Assembly (NCBI RefSeq): GCF_900142205.1
Contig: NZ_FRAA01000006.1
Coordinates: 186,001-250,000 of the forward strand
Source of the DNA: Reichenbachiella agariperforans
GTDB taxonomy: Bacteria > Bacteroidota > Bacteroidia > Cytophagales > Cyclobacteriaceae
Direction: 5' to 3'
Length of the DNA: 64,000 nt
Positions 1,905 to 27,579 of this stretch are shown one piece after another. The position numbers and the translations under genes were made by a program. The notes under the pieces were generated by a model that was not told where the DNA came from, did not search any database, and saw only the letters and a list, made by a program, of their open reading frames with translations. Numbering within the stretch: position 1 is the first letter of the stretch; each line of letters begins with the position of its first letter.

Positions 1905-3228
1905 GGCAAGTCTGATCATGTTGCTACTGACCTGTTCGGTAGCGATGGGACAAAAGGCAGACAAGGGAGTGGTGATAGACAAGATCATCGCCAAGGTGGA
2001 TGATTATATTGTGCTCAAGTCTGAGTTGGAAAAAGGCTATATGGAGTTCATGTCCAGAGGGGAGATTACCCAGGGAGATGTGAAGTGTCAGATATTAGAG
2101 AGCCTCGTGATCAATAAACTCATGGTAGCCAAAGCAGAACTCGATTCGGTGGAGGTGATGGACATACAGGTAGAGCAGGAATTGGGTCAGCGGATGTCTT
2201 ATTTTATCCAGCAGATCGGTTCCGAAGAAAAGCTAGAAGAAGTCTACGGTAAGACAGTGGCTCAGTTTAGAGAGGAACTCTTTGATCAGATCAAAGAGCA
2301 GATGATTGTACGAAAGATGCAGGGGCTCATCAGTGCGGATGTCAGTATTACTCCTTCGGAGGTTAAGAGTTTCTTTAAGAAGATCCCATCGGATAGCTTG
2401 CCGTATTTTTCTACCGAAGTGACGATTGGCCACTTGGTTAAAATCCCTGAGCCTAATGACAAGGTGAAAGATCAAATCCGACTGGAACTTCTAGAGTTCA
2501 AGGATCAAATTGAAAATGGGATGGATTTTGGGGTACTGGCAAGTAAGTACTCGATGGACCCAGGGTCGGCGCGTCAGGGAGGCGAGTTAGGTTTCTTTAA
2601 CCGTGGCGAACTCGCGCCAGAGTTCGAAGCAGCAGCTTTGGGCATGAAGCCAGGAGAAATTTCCGAGCCAGTAGAGACCCAGTTTGGGTTTCACTTGATT
2701 CAGCTCATCGAGCGCCGAGGAAATCGGTACAACTCCAGACACATTTTGTTGATCCCCAAAGCAACACAGTCAGATATTCAGGAGAGCAAGGACTTTTTGG
2801 ATAGCTTGAGAACGAGTATTGTCAGAGACAGTATGCGATTCGATATATTGGCCAAGGAGCACTCAGATGACAAGCAGACCAGTGGTAATGGGGGATATTT
2901 TAGTGATGCAGATGGTGCCATGCGTATCTCTGTGGAGGAGCTAGATCCTACGATGTTTTTCACCATCGACACGATGAAAGTCGGCGAGGTGTCCAAACCT
3001 TTTGAGTATAAGATGCCTGATGGCAAAGCTGCCGTTAGAATTGTATATTACAGAGCAAAAATACCACCCCACCAAGCGAATCTTTTGGATGACTATCAGA
3101 AGATCAGGTCGGCAGCACTTGCTAACAAGCGCAACGGTATCATGTCTGACTGGTTCAAAGGTGCTCAAGGCGAGGTATACATCAACATAGACGAAGAGTA
3201 CGATTATTGTCGTATCCTGCTAGATTAA
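1885..3228 (+). CDS. SurA-like periplasmic peptidyl-prolyl isomerase with two parvulin domains
   Basis: A 447-aa protein with a signal peptide (hydrophobic LIMLLLTCSVAMG then Q). SurA_N-like helices (VVIDKIIAKVDDYIVLKSEL) come first. Parvulin domain 1 spans roughly residues 175-275 with the canonical SMDPGSARQGGELGFF and SEPVETQFGFHLI. A second, more divergent parvulin unit spans about 278-385 (YNSRHILL, HSDDKQTSGNGGYFS). Overall architecture matches SurA, which escorts unfolded outer-membrane proteins to the BAM complex; BamA is encoded in the same window at 58838-61522. Third gene of the chaperone operon. The ATG at 1885 lies inside the previous gene and gives an intact signal peptide. Confidence 0.88.
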   Translation: MNSKYIKASLIMLLLTCSVAMGQKADKGVVIDKIIAKVDDYIVLKSELEKGYMEFMSRGEITQGDVKCQILESLVINKLMVAKAELDSVEVMDIQVEQELGQRMSYFIQQIGSEEKLEEVYGKTVAQFREELFDQIKEQMIVRKMQGLISADVSITPSEVKSFFKKIPSDSLPYFSTEVTIGHLVKIPEPNDKVKDQIRLELLEFKDQIENGMDFGVLASKYSMDPGSARQGGELGFFNRGELAPEFEAAALGMKPGEISEPVETQFGFHLIQLIERRGNRYNSRHILLIPKATQSDIQESKDFLDSLRTSIVRDSMRFDILAKEHSDDKQTSGNGGYFSDADGAMRISVEELDPTMFFTIDTMKVGEVSKPFEYKMPDGKAAVRIVYYRAKIPPHQANLLDDYQKIRSAALANKRNGIMSDWFKGAQGEVYINIDEEYDYCRILLD

Positions 3229-3236
3229 GAAATCAT

Positions 3237-4199
3237 ATGACCGAATTCAAAAATGAAGTAGAAGCAGCGGATGCCTTGCACAAGGCTTACACTGATCTCA
3301 AAGCGGAAATTTCTAAAGTAATCATCGGACAAGATGATGTCGTGAAACTACTGTTGACGGCTATATTCTGTCAGGGGCACTCTTTGTTGGTAGGGGTGCC
3401 AGGACTTGCCAAAACGCTTTTGATCAAAACGATTTCTTCGGCACTTCATTTAGATTTTAGTCGTATTCAGTTCACACCTGACCTAATGCCGTCGGATATT
3501 TTGGGAGCGGAGACTCTGGATAAAGACCGAAACTTTAAATTTATCAAAGGGCCTATCTTCTCGAATATCGTACTCGCTGATGAGATCAACCGTACGCCAC
3601 CTAAGACGCAGGCGGCATTGCTAGAGTCGATGCAAGAGTATTCGGCGACTGTCGGAGGAAAGAAATGGGAATTAGAAAAACCATTTTTTGTACTCGCGAC
3701 ACAGAACCCAATAGAGCAAGAGGGGACTTATCCGCTACCCGAAGCGCAGCTTGATCGATTCATGTTCATGGTGACGCTAGATTATCCGTCTTTTGCGTCC
3801 GAAGTAGATATCGTCAAGCAAAAGATAAATGTATCGGAAGGAGTGAAACCAGTATTGAATGGAGAGCAAATCATCGCTTTTCAGCAGTTGGTGAACGACG
3901 TGCCTGTGGCAGACAATGTGGTAGAGTATGCCGTAGACCTAGTGCATAAGACACGTCCTAACTCTGATCGTGCTACAGATGTGACCAAATCTTATCTAGA
4001 GTGGGGAGCTGGACCTAGAGCATCACAGTTCCTCATCAAGGCGGCCAAATGCAATGCGCTACTAAGTGGTAAATATTCACCGGATATCGAAGATGTCAAG
4101 GCTATCGCCGAACCTGTGCTGCGTCACCGTATCGTGCGCAACTTCAAAGCGGAGGCAGAAGGCATGTCCATGACCAAAATCATACAAGCGTTATTATAG
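3237..4199 (+). CDS. MoxR-family AAA+ ATPase
   Basis: A 320-aa MoxR ATPase. Walker A is GVPGLAKT (about residues 53-60) and Walker B ADEINR (about 113-118), followed by the sensor region ATQNPIEQEGTYPLPEAQLDRF typical of the family (motif quoted in part: ATQNPIEQEG). MoxR proteins are cytoplasmic chaperone-like ATPases that usually activate partner proteins with von Willebrand factor A domains; no VWA gene is adjacent here. The ATG at 3237 is preferred over a TTG at 3207, which would reach back into the upstream gene. It lies 8 bases after the SurA-like gene, so co-transcription is likely. Confidence 0.92.
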   Translation: MTEFKNEVEAADALHKAYTDLKAEISKVIIGQDDVVKLLLTAIFCQGHSLLVGVPGLAKTLLIKTISSALHLDFSRIQFTPDLMPSDILGAETLDKDRNFKFIKGPIFSNIVLADEINRTPPKTQAALLESMQEYSATVGGKKWELEKPFFVLATQNPIEQEGTYPLPEAQLDRFMFMVTLDYPSFASEVDIVKQKINVSEGVKPVLNGEQIIAFQQLVNDVPVADNVVEYAVDLVHKTRPNSDRATDVTKSYLEWGAGPRASQFLIKAAKCNALLSGKYSPDIEDVKAIAEPVLRHRIVRNFKAEAEGMSMTKIIQALL

Positions 4200-6809: not shown

Positions 6810-8933
6810 TCAATCAACAATAATTTTCTGAGAAGCTTTAGCATTTCCAGACTGGATGTAGGCGATGTAAACCCCCTTCCTTAGTGTAGAGAAGTCTAAG
6901 GTCTGAGGTTGTCCAGCTCGTAAGGACACGCCTTTGAGAACGAGATGTCCAGCGGTGGTGAGGAGGTAGAGCGTAGCATCCTGGTTTGAGCGAAATGTTG
7001 CTTGACGATCCGCTCCAGTAGGGTTAGGGTAGGCGAGCAATGTTAGGTCTGGTGCATCTGAAGGAGAGGCTTGATATAGCCATAGCCCCCCTTGTATGCT
7101 GCCTGCTGCGACGACTGTTTTGCCGAAAAGCTGACCGATTATAGGTTTGGTGTAGCGACCTAGTCGGGTGGTGTGCAGAGAGGTATTGGGTTCGTATTGC
7201 ACTTGCAGGCTGTAGGGCTGGTCTAGCTGGTTTGGGAAGTCGTTGTACACCGTCATTTGGCCTGAACGGTCGGTGGTCAGTAGGTCGTTCGAACCGTTAC
7301 TGTCCAAGTCTCCTATAGTTATCGATAGATTGGTAGGTGCGCCCTTTTCTGCATCGAGTAGATTAAAGGTCTCGATGACGAAGTTCATTTCGCCAGTGTT
7401 GCGGTAGTAGTCTAGCTCGCCATAGCTCCGAGCGATAAGTGCATCGAGTATTCCATCATCGTCCATATCGTATAACAATACGTCATCACCCGAGGTGTAG
7501 CTAATGGTGATTTCTGTCAGCTGGCTTAGATTAAAAGTCATCTCTTCTCCACTGCCAAGATTGAGTAGGTAGTGCATTTTGTTTCTAAACCTTTCGTCTA
7601 CAGACGTAAATACCAAGTCGAGTCTATGGTCACCGTTGATGTCTACGAATTGTGGTTTGATGTCGGTGTGTCCCAAACTCCCAAGCCCAAACTGATCCGA
7701 GTTATGGAATGAAAAACTGCCATCGGCTTGACCGAGGTATATCGTTAGCGTGCTGACGTATTGGTCATGGAGCAATGAGCCTTTGTTGCCAAGTACGAGA
7801 TCGTTGATGCCGTCTCCATTGATGTCTGCGATGCTGGGATAGGCCCATTCACCTACGTCTATCATTTCCTGTTGTAGGAATGCTCGTGAGCTAGTAAAAC
7901 TGTTAGCGCCTTGATTGGGATAAACCAAACTGGATTGTTGGAAGTTGATATTCCGCTGGGAGTTGTCTCTCACATTTGGAGAGATGAGCAGATCTTTTTG
8001 ACCATCAAAGGTCACGTCCTCGTAGAAGCTTGCTGGAAAAAGTGTAAAATCGAGTGGTTCGTTTTCGGAGGGGAAATCAGGAAACAAGGAGTTGAAAAGT
8101 GCCATTCCGCTATTGCCTTGGTTGGCTAGATAGTTGAGTTCTGGACAATCTTCTTCACTGATGATTAAGTCCATTAGCCCGTCTTGGTTTTGGTCTATAG
8201 AGAGTATGGCTTTTCCGGCGAGGTGTTTGAGCCGACCGCCAGCCGAGCAGTCACCTGCGAACTGATAGTTGTCACAGTCGCATACCTGAAGTCCTCCATA
8301 GTTGTCAGAGGCATGGGTGTAGATCAGGTCACATGTCTTGTTGAGATCCATGGAGAGATTTTCATGAAAGTCGATGGTGATACCCGTTGCAAAGTCGAAC
8401 ACCAGAATGTCTATATCTCCGTCACCATCTAGGTCTTCTATAGATGGGATATCCGTAGTGTTGAGAAAGATGTTGATGGGATTGGTGTTGATATTGGTGA
8501 GTAGTGGGTTGGCGACTTCTTCCCAACTGATGGAGAAGTCATCTGAGGTGTTTTGATAGACATGAATACCGAGTTGCGAGGAGGTGAATAGGTCTTTACG
8601 TCCATCGCAGTTATAATCTTTGAGTATCATCCAGTTTTGAATCCCTGACGGAAACAGATGTTCGAACTCGGGGTGGTATGTATAGTGGTCTTGTTGGTTT
8701 TCGTAGCAGTTGATTTTGTCCGACGATCGATCAAAAACAATCAAATCCAGGTCTCCATCATGATCCAAATCCATCGTTTGATATTGGGCACTATTGATGC
8801 CGCCAGCGAAGGGGAAATGGATTTGTTCCTGATGGTAGACGACAGGTGTGTAGGGAGAAAGCGTGGTTTGTGCTTTGGCCGCCCCGTGGAGGGTGAGCGT
8901 AGATAATATGACTATTTTTAGAAGACTTTTCAT
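6810..8933 (-). CDS. Secreted FG-GAP/VCBS-repeat protein with T9SS sorting domain
   Basis: A 707-aa protein. An N-terminal signal peptide (KIVILSTLTLHGAAKA) is followed by many FG-GAP/VCBS repeats with calcium-loop motifs such as DLDHDGDLDLIVFD, DLDGDGDIDILVFD, DINGDGINDLVLG, DINGDHRLDLVF and DMDDDGILDALIA, predicted to fold as a beta-propeller. The C-terminal about 80 residues form a T9SS type A sorting domain (LAYPNPTG...RKGVYIAYIQSG...KIIVD). It is therefore predicted to be exported and attached to or released from the cell surface. Function is unknown beyond binding or scaffolding. It is divergent from murF and convergent with the amidase. Confidence 0.85.
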   Translation of the reverse strand: MKSLLKIVILSTLTLHGAAKAQTTLSPYTPVVYHQEQIHFPFAGGINSAQYQTMDLDHDGDLDLIVFDRSSDKINCYENQQDHYTYHPEFEHLFPSGIQNWMILKDYNCDGRKDLFTSSQLGIHVYQNTSDDFSISWEEVANPLLTNINTNPINIFLNTTDIPSIEDLDGDGDIDILVFDFATGITIDFHENLSMDLNKTCDLIYTHASDNYGGLQVCDCDNYQFAGDCSAGGRLKHLAGKAILSIDQNQDGLMDLIISEEDCPELNYLANQGNSGMALFNSLFPDFPSENEPLDFTLFPASFYEDVTFDGQKDLLISPNVRDNSQRNINFQQSSLVYPNQGANSFTSSRAFLQQEMIDVGEWAYPSIADINGDGINDLVLGNKGSLLHDQYVSTLTIYLGQADGSFSFHNSDQFGLGSLGHTDIKPQFVDINGDHRLDLVFTSVDERFRNKMHYLLNLGSGEEMTFNLSQLTEITISYTSGDDVLLYDMDDDGILDALIARSYGELDYYRNTGEMNFVIETFNLLDAEKGAPTNLSITIGDLDSNGSNDLLTTDRSGQMTVYNDFPNQLDQPYSLQVQYEPNTSLHTTRLGRYTKPIIGQLFGKTVVAAGSIQGGLWLYQASPSDAPDLTLLAYPNPTGADRQATFRSNQDATLYLLTTAGHLVLKGVSLRAGQPQTLDFSTLRKGVYIAYIQSGNAKASQKIIVD

Positions 8934-14484: not shown

Positions 14485-17400
14485 CTATCTTCGTATCACT
14501 AATCTAGTTGTTGTAGTTATATCTTGGTTTGTGATTTTCATGAGGTAGACACCCGATTGGAGGCTATGTACTGATAGCCGCTGATCTTCCATGATTATTT
14601 CAGTCATGATGTGTGTTCCTCGAAGGTCGAAAACTTGAATCTGGGCTTCATTTGATTGTATTCCGCTTACACTGACCCAATCCGTAGCGGGGTTAGGGTA
14701 GTACTGAATCTTGACCTCAGGGGCAACAGCTGTCACGGTAGATTCTTCAGTCACGTCAAAGCTAATAACTGACTCTGCGGAGTGGTAGTTGTCATCTCCT
14801 GCTTGACTAACCGTGACAGTCACAGTTCCTGCTATTCCATCCAAAGTAATCGAAGCATCGTTGATGGTTGCTGGACCACTGACAGCATAGCTTAGGGTCA
14901 AACCTGATGTAGTACTTGCTACTATCTCTACGGGTTCTCCATTGGTGGTTTGATTTTCGATCGCTTCTATGGTGATGACCTGATCAGCTTTCTCAACGGT
15001 GAATGTTTGTGTGACTTGACTCGCTGCGTTGAAAGTTTCATCTCCCGACTGATCTGCTGCGATGACTATTTCACCCGCTCCCGTGATGGTCACGGTACTG
15101 CCTGCGATAGTCGCTGGCCCACTTACTACGCTGAAGGTAACATCTAGGCTAGAACTGGCCGTAGCGTTTAGATCAAAATCAGCATCCCCGAAGACTTTGT
15201 CGGCCAGTGCGTCGAAAGAGATCGTTTGATCTGTTTTGTCAGGATCGGTGACGTTAAAAGTCACTTGCTCACTAGCAGAGTTGTAATTGTCATCTCCTGC
15301 TTGACTGACCGTGACTGTCACCAGTCCAGCAGTTCCAGTCAGGGTAACTGTAGTGCCTGAAAGTGTTGCAGAGCCAGATACTTGGTAGGTCAAGCTGAGT
15401 CCAGAGGTAGTACTTGCTACTATCTCTAGGGGTTCTCCATCGGTGGTTTGATCTTGGATCGCTTCTATGGTGATTACCTGATCAGCTTTCTCAACGGTGA
15501 ATGTTTGTGTGACTTGACTCGCTGCGTTGAAAGTTTCATCTCCCGACTGATTTGCTGCGATGACTATTTCACCTGCTCCCGTGATGGTCACGGTGTTTCC
15601 TGCGATAGTCGCTGGCCCACTTACTACGCTGAAGGTAACATCTAGGCTAGAACTGGCCGTAGCGTTTAGATCAAAATCAGCATCCCCGAAGACTTTGTCG
15701 GCCAGTGCGTCGAAAGAGATCGTTTGATCTGTTTTTTCTACTGTGATGATAAATGTATCACTCACTGATTCGCCATCGCTATCTTCCACTGTCACCGTGA
15801 TAGTAGATATCCCGATGTTTCCTTCAGTGATTTGCAGTACATTGTTGTTGGATACTGCTACCGTTACCACTTCCGTATCGCTGCTACTGACGCTATAATT
15901 CAAAAGATCTCCATCCACATCTGTGAAGACGTCATTTAGGTCAATATCTATCGTTGCAAAACCTGCAGCCTGTGTTAGGTCTGCCAATGCATTGGTGAGA
16001 GTAGGCGCTGCATTGTCTTCTAGATCATTGATCGTGATCGTAAAAACTTGCTGATACGTTCCCCCATTATTATCGTCTACCTGTAGACGAATCGAATAAC
16101 TGGTTTTGGTTTCGAAATCAAATACTTCGTTAGACCTCAAATGAAGACCATTGACGGAGAATGAGGCATTGTCTGTATCTCCATCACCTGCTACCAAGCT
16201 GTAGGTTGGTTCATCGTACAAGTTCACATCTGTTCTACTCATTAGCGCGATGATCGTACCGACGGGGAGATTTTCATCTATGGATATATTATCCAGCATG
16301 ATTGCGGTTGGTGCTGCTTGGGCTACAAAATTCACCGTGAAGTTGAACGTAGCATCGGTCGTTCCACCATTGCCATCATCAGCTGTGACAGTAATCACCG
16401 CCGTGCCTAAGCCTACTTCGGACACGGTTAAAATACCATCTTCATCAATAGCAGCTGTAACGATCATTTCGTCACTGCTAGATACTGTTAGTATGATATT
16501 ATCACCATCCACATCTGTGAAAGCGCCTGACAAATCTCTGGTGGAGAGGTCAAACCCATTGATATCCGTATGATCAGCGATTACATCCACCAGAGCAGGA
16601 GGCGTGTTCGCAATACTAACGGTCACCACCCAATCCTGTGTCGTGACACCATTCTGAGCAGTTACAGTATAGGTAAAAGAGTTTGTGAAATCCTGTGCGC
16701 CATCTGGTGTGATCATAGCACCGTCTGATAGGGTAATCGTTGGTGTAAGGTTGGATATCTCAGTGCCTGGCTCTACTTCTATACTGATGGAATGATTGCC
16801 CGCATTGATAGTTGCGGCATCTGATTGCTCGTCTAGAACGAAGCTCACTATGTCCGACGCACTGTTAGGAGCCTCCGACAGGGTCACAACCCATTCCTCT
16901 GTAAATGTTGGCTCCTCTGCAGTGACTGTGTAGGTCACTGGAGTGCTAAAATCCTGTGCACCGAGAGGAGAAATATCCGCCCCTGCTGATACTGTGATCG
17001 TGGGTATCAAACTCGTCATATCAGTACCATAGGCAACTTCTAGAGATATGGTATTGGTCTCATTATCGACGACAGCAGTACCCGTTTGTTCTAGCAATAC
17101 AAAAGTCAGGATATTTGTATCCGTGGATTCTGCCTCATCATCTATCGAGATGGTAAAGGTTCTTTCTAAAGAGTACCCATTGCCATCATCAGTACTGACT
17201 CGAATAGCATAGGAGCTTTTTACCTCGTAGTTGAAACTTTCGGTCGTGAAGATTTCGTCATCAATGACTTCAAAAGAACTGTTGTCATCGCTACCTGTAC
17301 CCGTCACCAGTTCATACGTGAAACTCCCGGACAAATCTTCTCCAGCCGTTGATAAAGCACCTACTAGCGTGCCTGCGTCAGCATTTTCTACGACAGTAGT

Positions 17401-20400
17401 ATTATCCAAATCGATAGAGGTGATAGATGCAGCTAGGTCATTGACAGAAATCGTAAATGATTCTTCATAAATCCCACCATTACCGTCATTTGTCTGTACG
17501 AGAATTGAATAGCTGGTTTGTGATTCATAATCTAAAACCTCGGTAGTCACTAATTGATCTCCGGAGATCGCAAATGAGGCATTGCCTTCATCGCCTGTAC
17601 CTGAGACCAAGGTGTAGGTATGGGTTTGCCCTTCGTCTTCGTCGGTCGTACTGAAGGAGCCAATCACAGTACCTACTGGGTTGCTTTCATTAATCTCCAA
17701 GCTAGACAACTCCAGATCAGTGGGTGTTTCATTTACATCGTTGATATTGATGATGAACTGTTCGACGTATAGCCCACCGTTTCCATCATCGGTTTGCACT
17801 CTGATCGAATAGGCACTTTTCGTTTCGTGATCAAATATGGTATTGGCTTGCAACTCATTGCCGTCAATGGTGAAAGAAGCATTGTCTGCGTCTCCTGTAC
17901 CACTAGCCAGTGTGTAGGTGTGACTATCTGCGAAACTTGCATCTACTGTAGATAAAGTGCCAACCAAATCACTGACGGCATTATTTTCATCAATAGTAGA
18001 CTCAGAGATCGAGATGTCGGTAGGGCTGGCCAGAGCCTCCGTTACGCTTACAGTTATAGCGTTAGAAGTCGCGTCCTCTGCTGTGACGGTATAGACTACT
18101 GGAGAAGTAAAGTCTTGTTCAATGCCACTCTCTGGAGAAACCGTCGCACCGTCCGACACGGTGACCGTAGGAGTCAAAGCAGATATATCTGTACCTGCGA
18201 CCACCTCTATGGACACTGTGCTGCCTTCACCATTGTCAATGGTCGCTGCACCTGTTTGCTCTGAAAGAGTAAACGACAATATTTCGTCATCTGAATTGGC
18301 TAGAAAATCGATTCCTGCATTGATGCTATGATTCGTCGCATTTGCGACTTCAGATGCCTCATAGTTAGTAAAAGCTGCATCGGTAAAGTTAAAAATCAAG
18401 TTGCTGAGGTCGTCGGTATCTTTGTGATCAACCGCACTGCCAGTAAGTGTCACAGTAGCTGTATAACCATCCGAAGAGACAGACATTAAAGACGTCAGCC
18501 CTGTAGGTAAATTCGTAATACTGTAGGCAGTCAACACCCCACCAGGGTTGGTAAAAGTGTCGTCGGTCAGAGATATACTAAGTTCACCTTCGACAGCTCC
18601 GTTATTTACAACCGTTTCGGTGAATCCTCCAAAATCCATTTCAAACTGATGAATGCTAGCCCCAGTACCTTCATTAATATCAATTATAAAAACGCGACTG
18701 CCATCGGGTTGAATCGCAATACTATGGGCATAGTCAATTTCACCATCTATCTCTAAAGGTGTACCATTGATCGCAATACCATTTGATATATCGAATGGTG
18801 TATTGAGAATATAGCTTACCGCATATCCACTCGACAGCATAAGAAAATAACGCCCATCAGGAGAAATTACTCCACCTGAGAGCCCCTCTAGCTCAGGTTC
18901 ATAAGTCGCCTCGAAGGTGGCATTGGTAAGGTCAAATGGTGTAGGAAGACCAAACTGATGTATACCATCTCCCATTAGGTACATTTTCGTGCCATCAGGA
19001 CTCATTGTCATCGCTGATCCACTGCTGTAAGTGTTTACACCCAAAGAGTTGCCACTATAAGTGGCTCCTGTTGTGATCTCGAAAGGAGTGCTTAGGTTAT
19101 ACTCATAGATGACATAGCTGTCATCACCCAGTACGTACATTTTTGAACCATCTTCAGAAAAAACGATGTCTTCTGGGTGTTCATCTTCCATGCTCACATC
19201 AAACGACCCATTAAAACTAACCCCAGAGGTAATTTGATAAGGAATGGACAGGCTGTACTGATGAATAGCTGAGTTATCTCCACCTGCGGTGAACATTTTT
19301 GTTCCGTCATGGCTAAATACAATTCCAGCAGGGTAGGTTTCTTCACTATACACATCTAGTGGGCTACCCGCATTCGTGGCGTATTCCATATTCAAGCCAT
19401 TGCCATAAAAAAGCATAGGATGGTTGTCTCTAAAATCAACTGACCGACCGCTAGAGCCTGCTACAGCATTAGCTACTACGGAAGCGTCATTACCGACAAA
19501 TGCCGAATTATTGAAGGTAAATTGAAGGTCATCCACATCATGTATATCCTGATGATGTTCACCTTTATCTGTCAGTGTCAAAGTAGCAGAAAACCCATCT
19601 TCAGCTACATCCAATGTAGCTGTTAAACCTGTCGGAAGGTTGTCGATCGTATAGTCAGAACCATACGTCAAAATACTTCCTGCTGAAGTGAATCGCTCAT
19701 CATCGATCTCTATAAATAGAGAGCCAGCCACATCTCCATCATTTTTGTCCACTTCCATAAATCCATCGACTGGCAATGCCAATTGCAAGATTTCTTGGTT
19801 ATTGGCCAGTACCCAAAGGAATTTTCCGTTTGGACTGATGCGCGCATCTCCGGCATGGTTGGTCAATTCAAACAGACTTTTACCACCGATGCTCGTCACG
19901 CCGCTGCTCAGGTCATTTGCGATATTCATTTGATATTGCCGAATCGACGTTTGTCCTGGATACGAAGTGTTGATCAGATAAATCTCTCTGCCATTGTCCG
20001 AAAGCAAAATCCCGGCATAATTGTATCCAGGGACACTGTACGAAACGTCATCATAGTCTACAGTACCTGTCAGGTCAAAAGGTGTTTCTAACGTGTACTC
20101 ATATATTTTATCCGTATGCGACCCGATCATGTACATTTTTTTACCATCACGGCTAAAGGTGATACCACTTGGCTGAATATCGTTGCCCATATCGTATGAC
20201 CCCTCGTAACTCACACCACCGGACAGGTCAAAAGGTGTAGTCAGGTGATATTGAAGTATGTCGTCGGAGCTGATCTGTACATACATTTTGACTCCATCGT
20301 GACTAAAATCAACATCCCCAGGCGATACCCCTTCATTAGAAACATCAAAGGATACAGAAGCATATGCTGCTCCATCTGATAGGTCAAAAGGCGTGGTGAG

Positions 20401-23400
20401 ATCATACTGATAAATGGCATTTTCTTCCCAGCTGGAAACAAATATCCTCATGCCATCCTGACTGACGGCAAAGCTAGATCCTGCATTCTCGTTAGCGACA
20501 CTGAATTTGGCTACCTGGTTCCAGTTAAACTGCTCAGTAAAGTCAAGTTTGTTGCCATACATGATCCTGCGATCATTTTCATCAAAGTCAATTTTTCCTC
20601 CTGAACCGTGTGCTGTCGAATTGAAAACTACATCTGCGTCATAGGTAGTAAAGGCAGAATTTTCGAATGTAAAGATAAGGTCATCCATATCATCTGTATC
20701 CTGATGATGAGTAGCTGTACCGCTGAATGTGAGTGTTGCATTCAAGCCATTGGCTGATACTGACAGGTTTGGTATTAATCCATCAGGAATATCTGCGATC
20801 GTATAATCTTCCCCTTCAGTAAGTGTACCTCCTGCATTGGTAAATGTGTCATTAATTATATGAAGGCCCATTGCCCCCGTTAGTTCTCCTTCATTTTGAT
20901 AGGTTTCTGAAAAAATACGGGCATTATAGTTAATGGTAGCATTGTCCAGAAAATCAAAATCCAGTAGAAACGCAAGTGTTGAATTTTGGATACTAGCTGC
21001 ATCACCCGAGTCAAAAGACCCATCTAGCAGCGACAAGCTGATTTCGGCTGTAAGATCATCGGCATCCTGATGTGCTTCAGCATTGCCAGTCACAGTCAAT
21101 GTAATCGACAATCCATCGGCTGCAACATTCAATGCTTCTGACAGTCCTGCAGGCAGTCCGCTCAGTGTATAGTCTGTACCAGCTTCTAAGACATCACCAG
21201 CCTTGGCAAATGCTTCGCCATTGATTTGAATCTCAAACGACCCAGAAACTTCCCCATTATTGGCCGCTAATTCACTAAATACTGCCGTGTGCATGCTTTC
21301 ATACTGGAGAATTACATCACCTACCCCTCCAGATACCAAAAATTTCGTACCATCACTGCTAATGACAAAACCTAGTGGGGCAGAGTCATCCGGTCGGACA
21401 TAGATACTCTCACTCGTACTTTCGGCTGTGGTTATATCAAACCCTTGGGAAAGATTGAACTGATAAATCACATCTGAGTTACTATTGATAATAAATAACT
21501 CCTCCCCACTGGGGGAAAACCTAGGGGAATAATTACCAGCAGAGACTGTTCCCGTTAGCGTTACCGTGCCTGTGATGTCAAACGGTGTTTCCAAAGCATA
21601 TTGTTTCAGTGTCGAGCTCGATAAAGAGGTCGTGTACATCTGAGTCCCGTCTACACTGAAGGTGAGCCCAACACCTTGTGTGACAGCATATTCTCCCTCA
21701 TGCGTCACGGTACTGTTGATGTCAAATGCTGTAGAGAGATCAAACTGATGGATTTTGTCACTGGCATAGCCGATGATGAACATCGTATGTCCATCGGTAC
21801 TAAAGGCGATATCAAAGGCTCCAGTTTCATATTCAGATATGTCCAAAGGCGTACCATCCAATACGGCACCTGCGGCGATTTCATAAGGTGTAGTCAGCGT
21901 ATATTGATTGACCGTTGCATTAGTAGAGGCTAACATAAACAACTTGGTGCCATCTGGGTTAAATGCTAAGCCTGATGGATTGGAGGCTTGTTCTGACACG
22001 TCAAAAGTCGTTTCGTTCACTGCCATATTAGTTACCTGAAAACCATTGTCTGCATAAATTACTCCTTCGATTTCTCTGAAGGTGATACCACACCCACTAC
22101 TGGCGCTTGCGGCATTTGTTACATTACTTGCGTCACCATTACCGAAGGCACTGTTGCTAAACGTGAATACCAAATCGGACACATTATCTGTTTTTTCGTT
22201 ATCGGTTGCTTTCCCTGCAAAAGTTAAAAGAGCAGACCAACCATCTGCTGCTACGGTGAGCACTGGCGTCAATCCAGCGGGTATAGGGCTGATCGTATAG
22301 TCATCGCCATAGCTAAGCGTTTCTCCAGCATTGTTGAAAGAATCATCAGTAACAGTCACTGTGAACTCTCCGAGCACCGAACCGTCGTCCGCATAGGATT
22401 CGTTAAAGCTGGTGAAGGTTTCGTTTTCATAAGTAATAGATGCTGTACCGTCTCTGAAATCTATGTCGATACCTGAGTTAGCAGATGTAGTATTTAGTAT
22501 AGCTGAGGCATCACCACCCGAAAATGCCGAATTATTAAAAGTAAATATCAAGCTACTGATGTCATCTGAGTCTGAATTATTGGTGGCATTACCCGTAAAT
22601 GAAAGTGTTGCACTCGTCCCACTGTTAGCTACCTCTAATACAGGTGTCAGACCGGCTGGTAGGTTAGCAATCGTGTAGTCACTACCGTGAGCAAGTGTAT
22701 TTCTCTGATTGGTAAAAGTTTCTCCTTTCAATAAAAAACCCTGAACGGTAGTCAATATCGACCCATTGTTAGAGTTACTTTCTACAAAACCAGCACTGAC
22801 CAGTTCATATTGTGTCACTTGATCACCCCACCCCGTCATAAACAATCTGTTGCCCGCAGGTGAAAACACCATGCCTTGTGCCTGGCTATGTATAGGTTCA
22901 GTACTGAAAATACTTTCTCCCTTTATCATGGTAGAAGTCAAATCAAAAGCACTGCTCAAAAAGTAAGTTTCTAGTTGATTGTCTCCAGTCAATACCACAA
23001 GATTTTTTCCATCTGCACTAAGATCAAAATCATATATGTTACCCAATTCCACAGTCGAGTGAACAAATGTTGTCGTGGAGGTAATGTCGTAAGCACTTGT
23101 CAATTGATATTTGTGGATTTTCATGCTAGTGATTCCTCCTATATACATCGTCATACCATCATCACTAAATTTCATGCTGTATGGGTTGATTTCTTGAGCA
23201 GTGGCATTAAATGACCCTTCGGGCGTGACAGTAGAGGTAATGTCAAAATTGACCGAAAGACCAAACTGATGTACCTGTCGAGAACCTGTGCCTAATACAA
23301 ATAACTTTGACCCATCGTCATTGAAAGTCATAGTTCGTGGGTAAGAATCCCCACTGGTTATTGATCCTTCGTGTGTTAAACCAGCTCTGAGGTCATACGC

Positions 23401-25974
23401 CGACACTAACCCATATTGGTTGATTAAGTCTCCCTCGCTACCAATCACAAATAACTTTAATCCATCATGGCTGAACACTAGGTCATTGGCATAATTCTCC
23501 TCATCACCTATGTAGTGTGATGTCTGAATAGTAGCACCTCCTGTTAGGTCAAAAATAGATCCATATGTGAGTGAGCCTCCATCATCGATAAAATCAACCC
23601 CAATGCCACTATTGGCACTGATAGCATTGGTTACAATAGATGCATCATCTAGTTCGAAAGCTTGATCAGCGAAAGTAAAAACAAGCGCCTCCAGGTCGTT
23701 GATGTTTTGGTGATTCGTAGCTTTACCCGAAAAAGTAACAATACCAGACTGACCATCAGCAGCCACAGAAAAGGAAGGAGTTAGTCCAGCGGGGAGATTA
23801 TCAATGGTATAGTCAGCACCGTGGGTAAGGCTTCCTCCTGCATAACTGAATTGATCGTCTGATATTTTGATTGAAAATGAACCAATCAGACTACCATCGC
23901 TTGATCCATCACCTGCTACCGCTTCTATAAGTATTTGAGGGTTCGAAATCTGAAAGTGATTTACCACCTCGTCGTAATATCCCACGGTAAACAAGGAACT
24001 ACCCGTCGCATTGAAACAGAATCCATTTGGAAAGGCGTCAACCGCTCCCATATAAAAAGTATTAGTGACAAAAGTTACACCTTCTGTAATGTCAAATGGC
24101 CTCTCTAATGAATAAATATTGATATCTCTACCTGCTCCGCCTAAGATATACATTTCAGTACCTGTACCGTTGAATGCTATATCCATAGGGTTGTAATCTT
24201 CGGACAATACACTGAATGGACTCTCGTCAAATGTCACACCAGTCGTAAGGTCAAATGCGTTAGATAATGAGTACTGATTGACTTCATCTCCACTAGTCCC
24301 CACTATAAACATCTTGGTGCCATCGGGGCTAAAAGTCACACCTGTGGCTGCCCCCTCCTGTGAAGTCACTAAATGAGTGACGGTATGCGAAACAGTTCCC
24401 GTCAAATCCCATGGCGAATTGACGCTGTATTGATTTACAGCTCCTCCATGGTCTAGAACGAACATTCTAGTCCCATCACGGCTAAAAGTAATATCATGGG
24501 GCGCATTGACCTGACTAGAAACATCCATGGCAATATCCAAACTATATCCAGCACTGGGGGCGAATGGTTTGGCTAATGAATATTGATTTACGTTATCAGC
24601 TGCATCACCCGTAATGTACATTTTTAATCCATTGGTGCTAAATGTCACGCCACGTGCATCGGGCTCTTCAGAAGAGATGCTGTAAGACCCAAGTAGTTGG
24701 GGGACAGCCGTATCAAGGTTGAAGCCATCACCATATGCAACCACTGGCCTGTTTTGTTTAAAATCAATTGATATACCACTACTGGCAGATATAGCATTTT
24801 CTACTGCTGAAGCATCTCCACCAGTAAAAGCAGAATTGGCAAATGTGAAGAGTAGACCGGACACATCATCAGCGTCTTGGTGTGATATGCTTGTTCCCGT
24901 TAAGGTCAGTTCGACTGATAAACCATCCGCTGCTACAGTCAATACTGGTGTCAAGCCTTTGGGTATGCCTGACACTCCATAATCAGTTTTGTATATCAAT
25001 GTACCACCAGCATGGGTGAATGTATCTCCACTGATATGAATTTTAGCGGAGTTTTCAATACCACCTTTGTTATCTCCATTTTCGTTAAAGACAGTTGGAT
25101 TCAAATCGTATTGAATGATGTCGTTCCCATCATCACCTAGCACGATGAGAGCTGTGCCTGTTTGGTTGATCAGAAGATCCCTTGGAAAGCCTTCCTCATT
25201 TGAAATATCCACTTCGTATATTGTCTTGGTCACCCCAGTTGTAATATCATATGGTGTACTTAGCAGATACTCTGAAATCACATCATAGTTTGGTGTGACC
25301 GAATAGAGTTTTGTTCCATCATTGTTGAAGGCCATACCCATGCTTTGGTAGTACCAAGTAAACGTGACGCTGAGCCCATCTACTGTCACACCTGTACTAA
25401 TGTCAAAAGGGGTTGACAAAGTGTATTGTCTTGCACTATATGGAGATCCCGAGCTATTAACGTACATTTTTGTTCCATCCGGATTGAATATTAAGCCTGA
25501 TGCTCCAGAGACATTGGCGTCAAATACAATGTCATCATACTCCACTGTGGAGGAAAGGTCAAACCCGATGCTGACAGAGAATTGATGGACATCACCAGCT
25601 ATATCTAAAACAAATAACTTTTCTCCTGTGTTATTGAAAGCCATCCCTCTGTTGCTGGATACATCACTGGATAAATCCTGAAATACATTGTCATAAGAGA
25701 CGCCACCGCTTATTTCAAAAGGTGTGACCAGACTATACTGAAATACTTCTCCGCCATTTTCAGCCACATAAAGTTTGGTGCCATCCGGGTTCATGATCAT
25801 ACTACGAGGAGCACCTGTCTGCCCAAGGATCAAAAAATTGTCATTATAAGTCGCTCCATTCGAAAGGTCAAACGATGAATTATAAGAAATCGACTGTGCC
25901 TGAGACTGATCGATTGCCATGAGGCTAATCATCATCAGACACCATAAATGGATAAGGTTAAGTGAATTTTTCAT
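14485..25974 (-). CDS. Giant secreted repeat protein with propeller-like blocks, cadherin/Ig domains and T9SS tail
   Basis: About 3829 aa. A signal peptide (LMMISLMAIDQSQAQ) starts it; ATG 25974 is preferred over GTG 26013 because it gives a normal signal peptide. Then come six blocks of five repeats of about 52 aa (consensus P-x-G-x-x-F-S-x-D-G-T-K-M-F-V-x-G ... I-x-Q-Y-x-L-S-x-P-F-D-I). They are separated by eight copies of a hinge domain of about 110 aa (DYTI-x-NLPAGLTPVL, TLTG-x-A-x-HQD-x-DD, FTF-x-NSAF). Next are a DUF5018-like unit, three cadherin-like repeats (ending DDGNGG), two DUF5018-like units, VCBS/Ig-like and a fourth cadherin unit (15745-17110), and two near-identical 166-aa Ig-like pairs. 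The tail YYPNPATDWVSVSG...GVYLMKI...RLVIRR is a T9SS type A sorting domain. Predicted role: surface adhesin or scaffold. No enzyme motif seen. Confidence 0.9.
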   Translation of the reverse strand: MKNSLNLIHLWCLMMISLMAIDQSQAQSISYNSSFDLSNGATYNDNFLILGQTGAPRSMIMNPDGTKLYVAENGGEVFQYSLVTPFEISGGVSYDNVFQDLSSDVSSNRGMAFNNTGEKLFVLDIAGDVHQFSVSIGFDLSSTVEYDDIVFDANVSGASGLIFNPDGTKMYVNSSGSPYSARQYTLSTPFDISTGVTVDGLSVTFTWYYQSMGMAFNNDGTKLYSVTPNYDVISEYLLSTPYDITTGVTKTIYEVDISNEEGFPRDLLINQTGTALIVLGDDGNDIIQYDLNPTVFNENGDNKGGIENSAKIHISGDTFTHAGGTLIYKTDYGVSGIPKGLTPVLTVAADGLSVELTLTGTSISHQDADDVSGLLFTFANSAFTGGDASAVENAISASSGISIDFKQNRPVVAYGDGFNLDTAVPQLLGSYSISSEEPDARGVTFSTNGLKMYITGDAADNVNQYSLAKPFAPSAGYSLDIAMDVSSQVNAPHDITFSRDGTRMFVLDHGGAVNQYSVNSPWDLTGTVSHTVTHLVTSQEGAATGVTFSPDGTKMFIVGTSGDEVNQYSLSNAFDLTTGVTFDESPFSVLSEDYNPMDIAFNGTGTEMYILGGAGRDINIYSLERPFDITEGVTFVTNTFYMGAVDAFPNGFCFNATGSSLFTVGYYDEVVNHFQISNPQILIEAVAGDGSSDGSLIGSFSIKISDDQFSYAGGSLTHGADYTIDNLPAGLTPSFSVAADGQSGIVTFSGKATNHQNINDLEALVFTFADQAFELDDASIVTNAISANSGIGVDFIDDGGSLTYGSIFDLTGGATIQTSHYIGDEENYANDLVFSHDGLKLFVIGSEGDLINQYGLVSAYDLRAGLTHEGSITSGDSYPRTMTFNDDGSKLFVLGTGSRQVHQFGLSVNFDITSTVTPEGSFNATAQEINPYSMKFSDDGMTMYIGGITSMKIHKYQLTSAYDITSTTTFVHSTVELGNIYDFDLSADGKNLVVLTGDNQLETYFLSSAFDLTSTMIKGESIFSTEPIHSQAQGMVFSPAGNRLFMTGWGDQVTQYELVSAGFVESNSNNGSILTTVQGFLLKGETFTNQRNTLAHGSDYTIANLPAGLTPVLEVANSGTSATLSFTGNATNNSDSDDISSLIFTFNNSAFSGGDASAILNTTSANSGIDIDFRDGTASITYENETFTSFNESYADDGSVLGEFTVTVTDDSFNNAGETLSYGDDYTISPIPAGLTPVLTVAADGWSALLTFAGKATDNEKTDNVSDLVFTFSNSAFGNGDASNVTNAASASSGCGITFREIEGVIYADNGFQVTNMAVNETTFDVSEQASNPSGLAFNPDGTKLFMLASTNATVNQYTLTTPYEIAAGAVLDGTPLDISEYETGAFDIAFSTDGHTMFIIGYASDKIHQFDLSTAFDINSTVTHEGEYAVTQGVGLTFSVDGTQMYTTSLSSSTLKQYALETPFDITGTVTLTGTVSAGNYSPRFSPSGEELFIINSNSDVIYQFNLSQGFDITTAESTSESIYVRPDDSAPLGFVISSDGTKFLVSGGVGDVILQYESMHTAVFSELAANNGEVSGSFEIQINGEAFAKAGDVLEAGTDYTLSGLPAGLSEALNVAADGLSITLTVTGNAEAHQDADDLTAEISLSLLDGSFDSGDAASIQNSTLAFLLDFDFLDNATINYNARIFSETYQNEGELTGAMGLHIINDTFTNAGGTLTEGEDYTIADIPDGLIPNLSVSANGLNATLTFSGTATHHQDTDDMDDLIFTFENSAFTTYDADVVFNSTAHGSGGKIDFDENDRRIMYGNKLDFTEQFNWNQVAKFSVANENAGSSFAVSQDGMRIFVSSWEENAIYQYDLTTPFDLSDGAAYASVSFDVSNEGVSPGDVDFSHDGVKMYVQISSDDILQYHLTTPFDLSGGVSYEGSYDMGNDIQPSGITFSRDGKKMYMIGSHTDKIYEYTLETPFDLTGTVDYDDVSYSVPGYNYAGILLSDNGREIYLINTSYPGQTSIRQYQMNIANDLSSGVTSIGGKSLFELTNHAGDARISPNGKFLWVLANNQEILQLALPVDGFMEVDKNDGDVAGSLFIEIDDERFTSAGSILTYGSDYTIDNLPTGLTATLDVAEDGFSATLTLTDKGEHHQDIHDVDDLQFTFNNSAFVGNDASVVANAVAGSSGRSVDFRDNHPMLFYGNGLNMEYATNAGSPLDVYSEETYPAGIVFSHDGTKMFTAGGDNSAIHQYSLSIPYQITSGVSFNGSFDVSMEDEHPEDIVFSEDGSKMYVLGDDSYVIYEYNLSTPFEITTGATYSGNSLGVNTYSSGSAMTMSPDGTKMYLMGDGIHQFGLPTPFDLTNATFEATYEPELEGLSGGVISPDGRYFLMLSSGYAVSYILNTPFDISNGIAINGTPLEIDGEIDYAHSIAIQPDGSRVFIIDINEGTGASIHQFEMDFGGFTETVVNNGAVEGELSISLTDDTFTNPGGVLTAYSITNLPTGLTSLMSVSSDGYTATVTLTGSAVDHKDTDDLSNLIFNFTDAAFTNYEASEVANATNHSINAGIDFLANSDDEILSFTLSEQTGAATIDNGEGSTVSIEVVAGTDISALTPTVTVSDGATVSPESGIEQDFTSPVVYTVTAEDATSNAITVSVTEALASPTDISISESTIDENNAVSDLVGTLSTVDASFADSHTYTLASGTGDADNASFTIDGNELQANTIFDHETKSAYSIRVQTDDGNGGLYVEQFIININDVNETPTDLELSSLEINESNPVGTVIGSFSTTDEDEGQTHTYTLVSGTGDEGNASFAISGDQLVTTEVLDYESQTSYSILVQTNDGNGGIYEESFTISVNDLAASITSIDLDNTTVVENADAGTLVGALSTAGEDLSGSFTYELVTGTGSDDNSSFEVIDDEIFTTESFNYEVKSSYAIRVSTDDGNGYSLERTFTISIDDEAESTDTNILTFVLLEQTGTAVVDNETNTISLEVAYGTDMTSLIPTITVSAGADISPLGAQDFSTPVTYTVTAEEPTFTEEWVVTLSEAPNSASDIVSFVLDEQSDAATINAGNHSISIEVEPGTEISNLTPTITLSDGAMITPDGAQDFTNSFTYTVTAQNGVTTQDWVVTVSIANTPPALVDVIADHTDINGFDLSTRDLSGAFTDVDGDNIILTVSSSDEMIVTAAIDEDGILTVSEVGLGTAVITVTADDGNGGTTDATFNFTVNFVAQAAPTAIMLDNISIDENLPVGTIIALMSRTDVNLYDEPTYSLVAGDGDTDNASFSVNGLHLRSNEVFDFETKTSYSIRLQVDDNNGGTYQQVFTITINDLEDNAAPTLTNALADLTQAAGFATIDIDLNDVFTDVDGDLLNYSVSSSDTEVVTVAVSNNNVLQITEGNIGISTITVTVEDSDGESVSDTFIITVEKTDQTISFDALADKVFGDADFDLNATASSSLDVTFSVVSGPATIAGNTVTITGAGEIVIAANQSGDETFNAASQVTQTFTVEKADQVITIEAIQDQTTDGEPLEIVASTTSGLSLTYQVSGSATLSGTTVTLTGTAGLVTVTVSQAGDDNYNSASEQVTFNVTDPDKTDQTISFDALADKVFGDADFDLNATASSSLDVTFSVVSGPATIAGSTVTITGAGEIVIAADQSGDETFNAASQVTQTFTVEKADQVITIEAIENQTTNGEPVEIVASTTSGLTLSYAVSGPATINDASITLDGIAGTVTVTVSQAGDDNYHSAESVISFDVTEESTVTAVAPEVKIQYYPNPATDWVSVSGIQSNEAQIQVFDLRGTHIMTEIIMEDQRLSVHSLQSGVYLMKITNQDITTTTRLVIRR
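14909..15237. repeat. Copy A of a near-identical direct repeat (period 498 bp)
   Basis: This 329-base stretch matches 15407-15735 base for base apart from a handful of substitutions. The offset is exactly 498 bases (166 codons), so the repeat keeps the reading frame. It encodes the Ig-like DKVFGDADFDL...VEKADQVITIEAI segment of the giant protein. Confidence 0.9.
15407..15735. repeat. Copy B of the near-identical direct repeat (period 498 bp)
   Basis: Partner of 14909-15237. Differences are scattered, for example GATTTGCTG against GATCTGCTG and GGTGTTTCC against GGTACTGCC. Identity ends sharply at the TTTGATCTGTTTT segment, which marks the domain border. Confidence 0.9.
18295..25890 (-). repeat. 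Six five-repeat propeller-like blocks separated by eight hinge domains
   Basis: Approximate positions, N- to C-terminal: block 1 25890-25075, hinge 25070-24750; block 2 24745-23920, hinge 23915-23585; block 3 23575-22775, two hinges 22770-22070; block 4 22060-21270, two hinges 21265-20570; block 5 20560-19755, hinge 19750-19425; block 6 19415-18610, hinge 18605-18295. Each block holds five repeats and opens with the short Y-G-x-x-F/L-D/N motif. Repeats are divergent at the protein level, so this is an old array, unlike the 498-bp duplication at the C-terminus. Boundaries were read by eye. Confidence 0.8.
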
Positions 25975-26106: not shown

Positions 26107-27579
26107 CTATTTCAATTTAACCACATATTTGAGTGCTTCTTTGCGATTGGACACGCCTAGTTTTTGATAGACGTTCTTGAGATGAAACTTGACGGTGCTC
26201 AGTGTGACGAATAGCGCATCCGCGACCTCTTGATTGGTCTTACCAGTCATACTACTTTGCAGCACTTCGTACTCACGATCGGTTAGTGGATTGACCAGCT
26301 TGGCATTGAACATGTCTAGGGCAATATCCAAATCAATTTTGGCTGGGCCACTGAGGAGTTCTACATATCTACGCTGCAACTCTTCCATTCTTAACTTCTG
26401 CTCGAGCTTATCTGACTGTGCTTTTTTTGCTTTGATCCAAAACAATAATCCCCCAATCAGAAGAACCATCAGTACCCCACCAATCAAAACAGCGATTTGC
26501 CAGCGAGCCTGTGTTAGACTCGCCAGTTTCAATTCGTTTTCTAATGTGAGCTTTTCTATTTTAGACTCCTTGAGAGAGGTTTCATACTTGGCTTGAAGAT
26601 CATTGATCTGAAGCGACTTTTCGGTATTGAATATCTTTTGTTGCAGTTCATATTGCTGCTTCTGATATTGGTAGGCTTGTCGATAGTCTTGTTTGGATTC
26701 GTACACCTTCTTCATCAGCTCATAGAGGTAGATTTCGTCCTGTTCAAAATGATGATCCATCACGAGTGCAAGTGCACGTCGAGAGATCGCCAAACTTTTT
26801 TCATTTTGCCCCTCCAGATGATAGTTCTCCGCAAGGTTCAAGTAGGCGTGTATCACACCAGAGGTATAACCGATCTCCTTAAAAATCCCCAGAGCCTGCC
26901 GGTAATTTGTCTCAGCTAGTTCATACTTACCTAGCATCGAATAGACCGTACCAGTATTGAGCAGCGTGTTGGCATAACCTTCTTTTTCCCCTATGTGCTT
27001 AAATAAACCAGCCGCTTGATCATAGCGATCAAGTTCCTCATCGGTTTTGTTTTCATATCCATCGAGCATCCCGAGATTATTGAGTGCATGCGCCCAACGG
27101 AGGGTATCTCTATAGCTTTTGGCTAGAGATTCCAGTTGCATGTAGTAGGTTCTTGAGGTGACATAATCCTCCTGATACATGAAATCAATCCCCAGATTGT
27201 TATACCCATCCATAATACAGATTGTATCCTTATTGGATCGTGCCAAATCTAGTGCTCTGATGGAGTAGGCTACTGAGCTATCATATTGTGCTTTGTAGCT
27301 GTAGGCTATCGACCGTAGGTTATAGACCCATGCCTTTAAGGAATCGTTTGGATGCAAGTCGAGCGTTTTCATGATTTGATCTGAAACAATCAGTGCTGAA
27401 TCAGGTTTCGACTCGGTTAACTGTTTTCCTATTTGGAGGAGTATGATACTATACGCCCCACTTTCAGATTCATAGTTAGTAAGAATGCTTCGCAGGGAAT
27501 CTAAATCGGAATATCCTCTGCTAGTCAATGAGGTCATCGACAGGTACAAGAGCATCATGCAAGTACATAATCTCGCCAT
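26107..27579 (-). CDS. Membrane-anchored TPR protein with LuxR-type HTH domain
   Basis: A 490-aa protein. A hydrophobic N-terminus (signal sequence) is followed by about 300 residues of TPR helices (for example YNNLGIDFMYQEDY, ALNNLGMLDG, TLLNTGTVYSMLGKYELAE). Then comes a coiled coil, one membrane segment (about 358-382, IAVLIGGVLMVLLIGGLLFW), a short linker and a LuxR/GerE HTH (about 430-490: LTDREYEVLQ, GKTNQEVADALFVTLSTVKFH, KLGVSNRKEALK). TPR repeats would face the periplasm and the HTH the cytoplasm. This architecture is common in Bacteroidota. It lies 132 bases upstream of the giant gene's ATG on the same strand, with palindromes between, so it is the likely regulator of that gene. Confidence 0.85.
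   Translation of the reverse strand: MARLCTCMMLLYLSMTSLTSRGYSDLDSLRSILTNYESESGAYSIILLQIGKQLTESKPDSALIVSDQIMKTLDLHPNDSLKAWVYNLRSIAYSYKAQYDSSVAYSIRALDLARSNKDTICIMDGYNNLGIDFMYQEDYVTSRTYYMQLESLAKSYRDTLRWAHALNNLGMLDGYENKTDEELDRYDQAAGLFKHIGEKEGYANTLLNTGTVYSMLGKYELAETNYRQALGIFKEIGYTSGVIHAYLNLAENYHLEGQNEKSLAISRRALALVMDHHFEQDEIYLYELMKKVYESKQDYRQAYQYQKQQYELQQKIFNTEKSLQINDLQAKYETSLKESKIEKLTLENELKLASLTQARWQIAVLIGGVLMVLLIGGLLFWIKAKKAQSDKLEQKLRMEELQRRYVELLSGPAKIDLDIALDMFNAKLVNPLTDREYEVLQSSMTGKTNQEVADALFVTLSTVKFHLKNVYQKLGVSNRKEALKYVVKLK

Follow-up and report, generated by a model that had tools for sequence, protein, structure and literature searches.

What would a bacterium do with a giant secreted protein whose repeats come in groups of five? 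The question is raised by a gene on the reverse strand, at positions 14485–25974, of a 64,000-nucleotide stretch of Reichenbachiella agariperforans DNA (contig NZ_FRAA01000006.1, positions 186,001 to 250,000; the whole stretch is called the window here). Its open reading frame runs from an ATG at 25974 to a stop at 14485 without an inner stop and encodes 3,829 amino acids, which corresponds to approximately 402 kDa and an isoelectric point of 4.05 (both computed minus the first 27 residues). An apparent signal peptide is followed by six blocks of five propeller blades with spacers, a stalk, and a type A sorting domain of the type IX secretion system (T9SS). We consider it probable, with some room for doubt, that this is a T9SS-exported surface protein whose six five-bladed beta-propellers form a multivalent and multi-specific adhesin or lectin-like string.

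The repeats have a pitch of about 52 residues. A blade profile made from 17 motif-found seeds of the giant protein and then iterated, using this protein alone, recovered 29 of the 30 blades at 26.6–64.9 bits. The 30th blade, around residue 2041, is degenerate, in that it was missed by this profile and scored 0 bits with a wider model, and it lies at the correct spacing. A spacer profile found eight copies of about 112 residues at 132–160 bits, while five further matches in the protein all scored below 0 bits. One copy stands behind each of blocks 1, 2, 5 and 6 and two behind each of blocks 3 and 4. The initial annotation of this locus, made from the sequence, had described the same six groups of five and the same distribution of hinges, and both are borne out. 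Its summary of the protein as propeller blocks with eight hinges was correct in these parts, but left out the DUF5018 and cadherin-like domains in front of the sorting domain. Residues 1–693, when searched against the own genome, matched only the giant protein itself.

The claim that the protein is a T9SS cargo is upheld by its C-terminus, which scores 44.9 bits against a cut-off of 23 with TIGR04183 and also matches PF18962. A putative N-terminal signal peptide can be seen by eye in the translation. The genome contains a gene for the translocon SprA, the part of the T9SS that was searched for (SprA_N, 491.1 bits), as well as 96 sorting-domain matches, 94 of them above the cut-off. From its domains, then, we infer a surface position for the giant protein: the sorting domain would direct it through the T9SS to the surface, and the stalk with DUF5018 and cadherin-like domains (PF16410, 74.6 bits, cut-off 38.2; PF00028, 62.8 bits, cut-off 28.8) leads to the sorting domain and probably holds the propellers outside the cell. 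A second T9SS cargo, of 707 amino acids with FG-GAP repeats and a sorting domain, is encoded nearby on the same strand (6810–8933).

Do the blades of a group close into a ring? The initial annotation had supposed that each group forms a small closed propeller and that the hinges are beta-sandwiches, and it had suggested structure prediction and repeat detection as checks. Both were run, with other programs than those proposed: the repeat counts were regular, at five per block, and the prediction gave a five-blade domain whose strand order fits closure by a strand swap. In the AlphaFold2 model of block 2 and its spacer (predicted local distance difference test score of 93), blades 1–4 are four-stranded and blade 5 is three-stranded, which leaves the N-terminal strand to complete blade 5. 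Of 55 runs in held-out relatives, 50 have the motif of this closing strand ahead of blade 1 and two have it behind blade 5, and in block 1 of the giant protein, residues 32–44 partially match the outer-strand end of the blade model (4.9 bits). Ring closure by the N-terminal strand is thus supported, on sequence and predicted strands, and each propeller would be a complete domain. For the hinges, the AlphaFold2 model of a double spacer supports a beta-sandwich, and the fold appears Ig-like (immunoglobulin-like), the nearest structure being the ChiW Ig-2 domain (matched over 112 residues at 18% identity; also the top Foldseek row, E 4.2e-4). The propellers would accordingly be joined by one or two Ig-like sandwiches, and the whole could be pictured as a string of rigid discs.

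The number five is kept well beyond this protein. Under a lenient cut-off, 186 of 193 non-redundant complete runs from bacterial and viral relatives and the window consist of 5, 10 or 15 blades (165 five-blade, 14 ten-blade and 7 fifteen-blade runs, against six of four blades and one of fourteen). This rule accepts a match of at least 0 bits with either of two models, provided it begins within the model's first half, and requires two blades of 15 bits in a run; 39 near-duplicate runs and 8 runs cut by contig ends were removed. By set, multiples of five make up 109 of 110 runs in IMG/VR, where the loci are the best 80 of at least 586 confirmed, ranked by similarity to a five-blade query, so that full-length matches may be favoured. 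They account for 4 of 5 runs in phage records, 49 of 54 in the bacterial family and 18 of 18 in the phylum (the last two sets obtained by local matches), and 6 of 6 in the window. With a stricter cut-off, multiples of five make up 105 of the 116 complete viral runs and 49 of the 62 complete bacterial ones, the window being counted among the latter; many of the oddly numbered runs arise here because a weak last blade is lost, blade 5 often being the weakest. The seven exceptions under the lenient rule are the four-blade runs in relatives L030, L038, L040 (two), L044 and L051 and the fourteen-blade run in L088. In L038 and L040, the stretch from blade 4 to the spacer is long enough to hold a candidate degenerate fifth blade. 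An eight-blade run in L106 is absent from the exceptions, since it was removed as a near-duplicate. L038 also has, before its blade block (residues 102–313), six weak repeats with a pitch of 42 residues that resemble an ordinary YVTN-type propeller and that the lenient rule excludes. Many-bladed propellers arise by amplification, and mature lineages are described as retaining a preferred blade number (PMC9218822, in the part of the text available). The present family is a clear case of this, though blade arrays are easily lengthened.

A propeller usually has its BC and DA loops on one face and its AB and CD loops on the other. Across 42 blocks, BC (2.88–3.01 bits) and DA (2.56–2.99 bits) are the most variable loops, whereas AB (1.41–2.04 bits) and CD (1.29–1.96 bits) are conserved. 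The picture is that of a constant framework with a single variable face, present in six copies that are linked by Ig-like joints and related to phage proteins encoded among tail genes (see below); this fits a multivalent adhesin. The BC/DA face would be the ligand-binding one, with glycans or surface polymers as the likeliest partners, and six diverged propellers would make the protein multi-specific; both the ligand class and adhesion itself are inferred.

Several points weigh against this reading. Strand d is about as variable as the BC and DA loops (2.04–3.07 bits in the 42 blocks), and one variable loop face is common in propellers and no proof of binding. Counting blades by one pitch gives the same variable positions, and 294 viral blades agree, but the contrast is weaker in 40 bacterial ones. 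The closure of block 2 as a ring is drawn from strand order and fold matches, not from coordinates. Blades at the same position in different blocks are hardly more alike than shuffled ones (identity 0.376 vs 0.361, a value reached in 0 of 500 shuffles), which lends little weight to blade position as the unit of duplication. A weak Pfam resemblance to lactonase and SGL enzymes leaves room for catalysis. Finally, the two other listed genomes of the genus have no match to blades or spacer, which makes the giant protein an accessory one.

How old is the array, and how widespread? Matches to blades or spacer occur in 23 of the 148 genomes of the bacterial family (20 of 84 genera), and in a phylum sample 17 of 395 genomes match block 2, with open frames of up to 7,518 amino acids; the own genome is included in both counts. 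The relatives include Imperialibacter and three metagenome-assembled genomes (Cytophagaceae, Flammeovirgaceae and Cyclobacteriaceae), all of which we take to belong to Cytophagales. Seven mapped relatives carry three to six five-blade blocks with the same spacers, so that the layout, for which the initial annotation knew no described counterpart, is not unique; judged from sequence, it is common to a protein family. A tree was built of 37 blocks drawn from 8 proteins. In it, block 6 of the window shares a clade with the final blocks of six further proteins (100/99), and block 5 goes with the next-to-last blocks of five (100/99). Block 4 is grouped with four blocks, of which three likewise precede a double spacer (99/98), and block 3 with block 1 of L033 (98/92). 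Because blocks 3–6 group with matching blocks of other genera at strong support, this part of the array is older than the sampled genera, and a recent tandem duplication is rejected for these blocks. A simple position rule is contradicted by blocks 1 and 2, which are unplaced, by the penultimate block 5 of L029, which groups elsewhere, and by the three L030 blocks, which cluster together. Plasmid spread was rejected, the plasmid collection having given no match.

Other arrangements of the same parts were also observed. An 8,194-amino-acid open frame in a genome of the same bacterial family (G042:C12) has a five-blade propeller and spacer in the fetched part. In L187 (3,026 amino acids), one five-blade propeller with a spacer is followed by three spacers about 625 residues apart, so the spacer recurs with a different large unit. 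Conversely, five-blade blocks in L041, L042, L044 and L046 are joined by other linkers of approximately 130–250 residues in place of the Ig-like spacer.

It is against this background that other explanations have to be weighed. The propellers could be mainly structural beads that add length and stiffness and hold distal domains off the cell without a specific ligand. Their spacer-like alternation with Ig-like domains, the long stalk and the retention of blocks 3–6 across genera would suit such a role. Beads need no variable face, however, and the BC/DA loops do vary more than AB/CD, if less so in the one-pitch count; the propellers themselves form the distal, N-terminal end; and some relatives (L031, L032, L037, L039, L045) retain a single propeller within a larger protein. 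We regard this role as unlikely.

That the propellers are surface-arrayed enzymes of lactonase, lyase or glycosidase type is, in our view, improbable. The idea draws on weak matches (E up to 0.1) to SGL in 37 of 42 blocks and to Lactonase in 21 of 42, on the SGL score of the whole protein (42.5 vs a cut-off of 26.3), and on stretches with His and Arg that single-domain relatives share by eye. Block 2, the one block with listed scores, stays below the curated cut-off of every family, however (PD40 20.2 vs 20.9, SGL 16.6 vs 26.3). The invariant or near-invariant positions of the 42 blocks are Gly, Leu, Phe, Ala, Pro, Asn and one Glu, and for this reason no obvious catalytic set is seen. The single-domain relatives are six proteins of the phylum with five blades each (L181–L186), stand-alone open frames of 299–363 codons, several with a lipobox by eye; their shared stretches lie around VAHGLF and RGHDFDF, and they are possibly a distinct functional, maybe enzymatic, branch.

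The blades also lead to phages. Ten phage records match. Besides Roseobacter, Lentibacter and Synechococcus phages, they comprise two others, of which one is uncultured and the other is named no further than Caudoviricetes. The five-blade genes of CRP-13 and ICBM2 are both annotated as hypothetical; the former adjoins a putative tail structural protein and is near a putative fiber protein, and on both sides of the latter, the neighbouring genes carry a tail assembly chaperone annotation. BFVD, a library of viral proteins only, gave phage or marine virus proteins as its top matches. A module of approximately 260 residues connects giant Bacteroidota surface proteins with marine phage proteins. 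Tentatively, and conscious that it may well prove wrong, we propose that this family, fixed at five blades across marine phage, single-domain and giant Bacteroidota proteins, is an interchangeable recognition cassette, and that the giant protein joins six such cassettes, each with its own specificity, by Ig-like links into a poly-lectin; marine phages would employ the same module in their tails. If so, it could hold several ligands at once, and since the module is small, the ligand is directly testable with single recombinant blocks.

The presence of the module in viral contigs and phage records, together with the BFVD matches, would also suit a capture of the array from phage tail genes, followed by its domestication into a surface adhesin. 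We think such a capture quite improbable, as blocks 3–6 were already part of this bacterial family before the sampled genera diverged; the tree that shows this covers bacterial blocks only.

An open solenoid, or rings that mix the blades of neighbouring blocks, is hardly credible: blades 4 and 5 are indeed degenerate (mean identities 0.313 and 0.291, vs 0.41–0.44 for blades 1–3) and some phages have spacer-less arrays of ten or fifteen blades, but the position of the closing strand, the predicted strand order of block 2, the existence of single-domain five-blade proteins and the prevalence of multiples of five all speak for closed five-blade rings. In uninterrupted ten-blade phage runs (L054 178–681, L105, L102, L127, L128, L082), blade 5 is roughly equal in strength to the rest; these may be two linked five-rings or a single ten-blade ring, and the sequence fits either.

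Features of the giant gene and its upstream neighbour (window coordinates; blades are given by first residue; HMM, hidden Markov model)
Feature	Coordinates	Strand	Residues	Details
Signal peptide	25897..25974	-	1-26	cut before Gln27; by eye from translation
Propeller block 1	25090..25893	-	28-295	blades 56, 108, 158, 211, 264; closing strand ~32-44; blade HMM
Ig-like spacer 1	24751..25089	-	296-408	158.7 bits
Propeller block 2	23908..24750	-	409-689	blades 440, 492, 543, 596, 649; blade HMM, AlphaFold2 model
Ig-like spacer 2	23584..23907	-	690-797	149.1 bits; included in block 2 AlphaFold2 model
Propeller block 3	22789..23583	-	798-1062	blades 829, 879, 931, 980, 1032; blade HMM
Ig-like spacer 3a	22450..22788	-	1063-1175	148.6 bits; AlphaFold2 double-spacer model
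Ig-like spacer 3b	22072..22407	-	1190-1301	157.3 bits; AlphaFold2 double-spacer model; fold match
Propeller block 4	21280..22071	-	1302-1565	blades 1333, 1386, 1434, 1481, 1533; blade HMM
Ig-like spacer 4a	20941..21279	-	1566-1678	132.3 bits
Ig-like spacer 4b	20575..20913	-	1688-1800	158.6 bits
Propeller block 5	19762..20574	-	1801-2071	blades 1832, 1885, 1935, 1986, degenerate 2041; blade HMM
Ig-like spacer 5	19423..19761	-	2072-2184	160.1 bits
Propeller block 6	18625..19422	-	2185-2450	blades 2215, 2267, 2319, 2365, 2416; blade HMM
Ig-like spacer 6	18295..18624	-	2451-2560	140.3 bits
Stalk	14704..18294	-	2561-3757	DUF5018, cadherin-like domains (Pfam), then further repetitive stretches (by eye)
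T9SS type A C-terminal sorting domain	14488..14700	-	3759-3829	TIGR04183, PF18962
TPR-LuxR-type regulator, upstream	26107..27579	-		PF13424, PF00196

The TPR-LuxR-type gene upstream on the same strand is, by association, a possible regulator of the giant gene. In 25 related loci, some with short flanks, strong matches to it were found only in L136 and L029, which belong to one Imperialibacter genome, and weak ones in L045; these are too few for a rule, and fixed adjacency was rejected. In L136 (814–3859), two such regulators lie directly upstream of the giant gene, compared with one in the window.

There are known examples of five-bladed propellers, of propeller strings and of T9SS giants. In Pfam and NCBIfam, no model dedicated to the five-bladed family was found. 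In PHROGs, four families without a name match 1–3 of the 42 blocks, and two of unknown function are hit by one phage protein; unnamed PHROGs may therefore already contain parts of the family. Nor was a description of the giant protein or the five-blade family seen in the open literature, among the matches listed and judged mostly from titles and abstract starts; to this extent, neither the combination nor the fixed count of five nor the link to phages seems to have been described before. The best PDB sequence-profile match is 1l0q ('Surface layer protein', E 2.6e-16), a YVTN/WD40-like protein with a similar blade core, which we take to be a Methanosarcina mazei surface-layer propeller of seven blades with a pitch of about 42, as opposed to five blades at about 52 residues here. 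The C-terminal domain of E. coli YjiK (PDB 3qqz) is a single domain at 11% identity. In contrast to the highly repetitive propellers of PMC9218822, whose accessible text does not contain 'five-bladed', '5-bladed', 'phage' or 'giant', the present blocks are diverged and old, not freshly amplified. A propeller described in PMC10386132 was rejected as the same protein, being a tail-tube protein according to the portion available.

The motility adhesins SprB and RemA are likewise T9SS-exported surface adhesins of Bacteroidota, RemA being a lectin according to a cited title; the likeness is one of description, and the accessible part of that source does not mention a propeller string (PMC3796261). 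As far as the text at hand goes, the Ig-2 domain of the Paenibacillus chitinase ChiW resembles our spacer in being an Ig-like beta-sandwich set between large domains of a protein at the cell surface, but it sits between GH18 domains and not, sometimes doubled, between propellers (PMC5132251). The receptor-binding protein (RBP) of Staphylococcus phage phi11 did not appear among the PDB sequence matches listed for the blocks (60 of 107). Its propeller, in the sections available, also has five blades, the fifth made of an N-terminal strand and three C-terminal strands, and serves receptor binding, with a cavity proposed to take N-acetylglucosamine (PMC4901313). It differs in having one propeller per chain, in a trimer, from a T9SS giant with Ig-like spacers. 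With the phi11 protein, there is thus already a published case of a five-bladed propeller for which sugar binding has been proposed.
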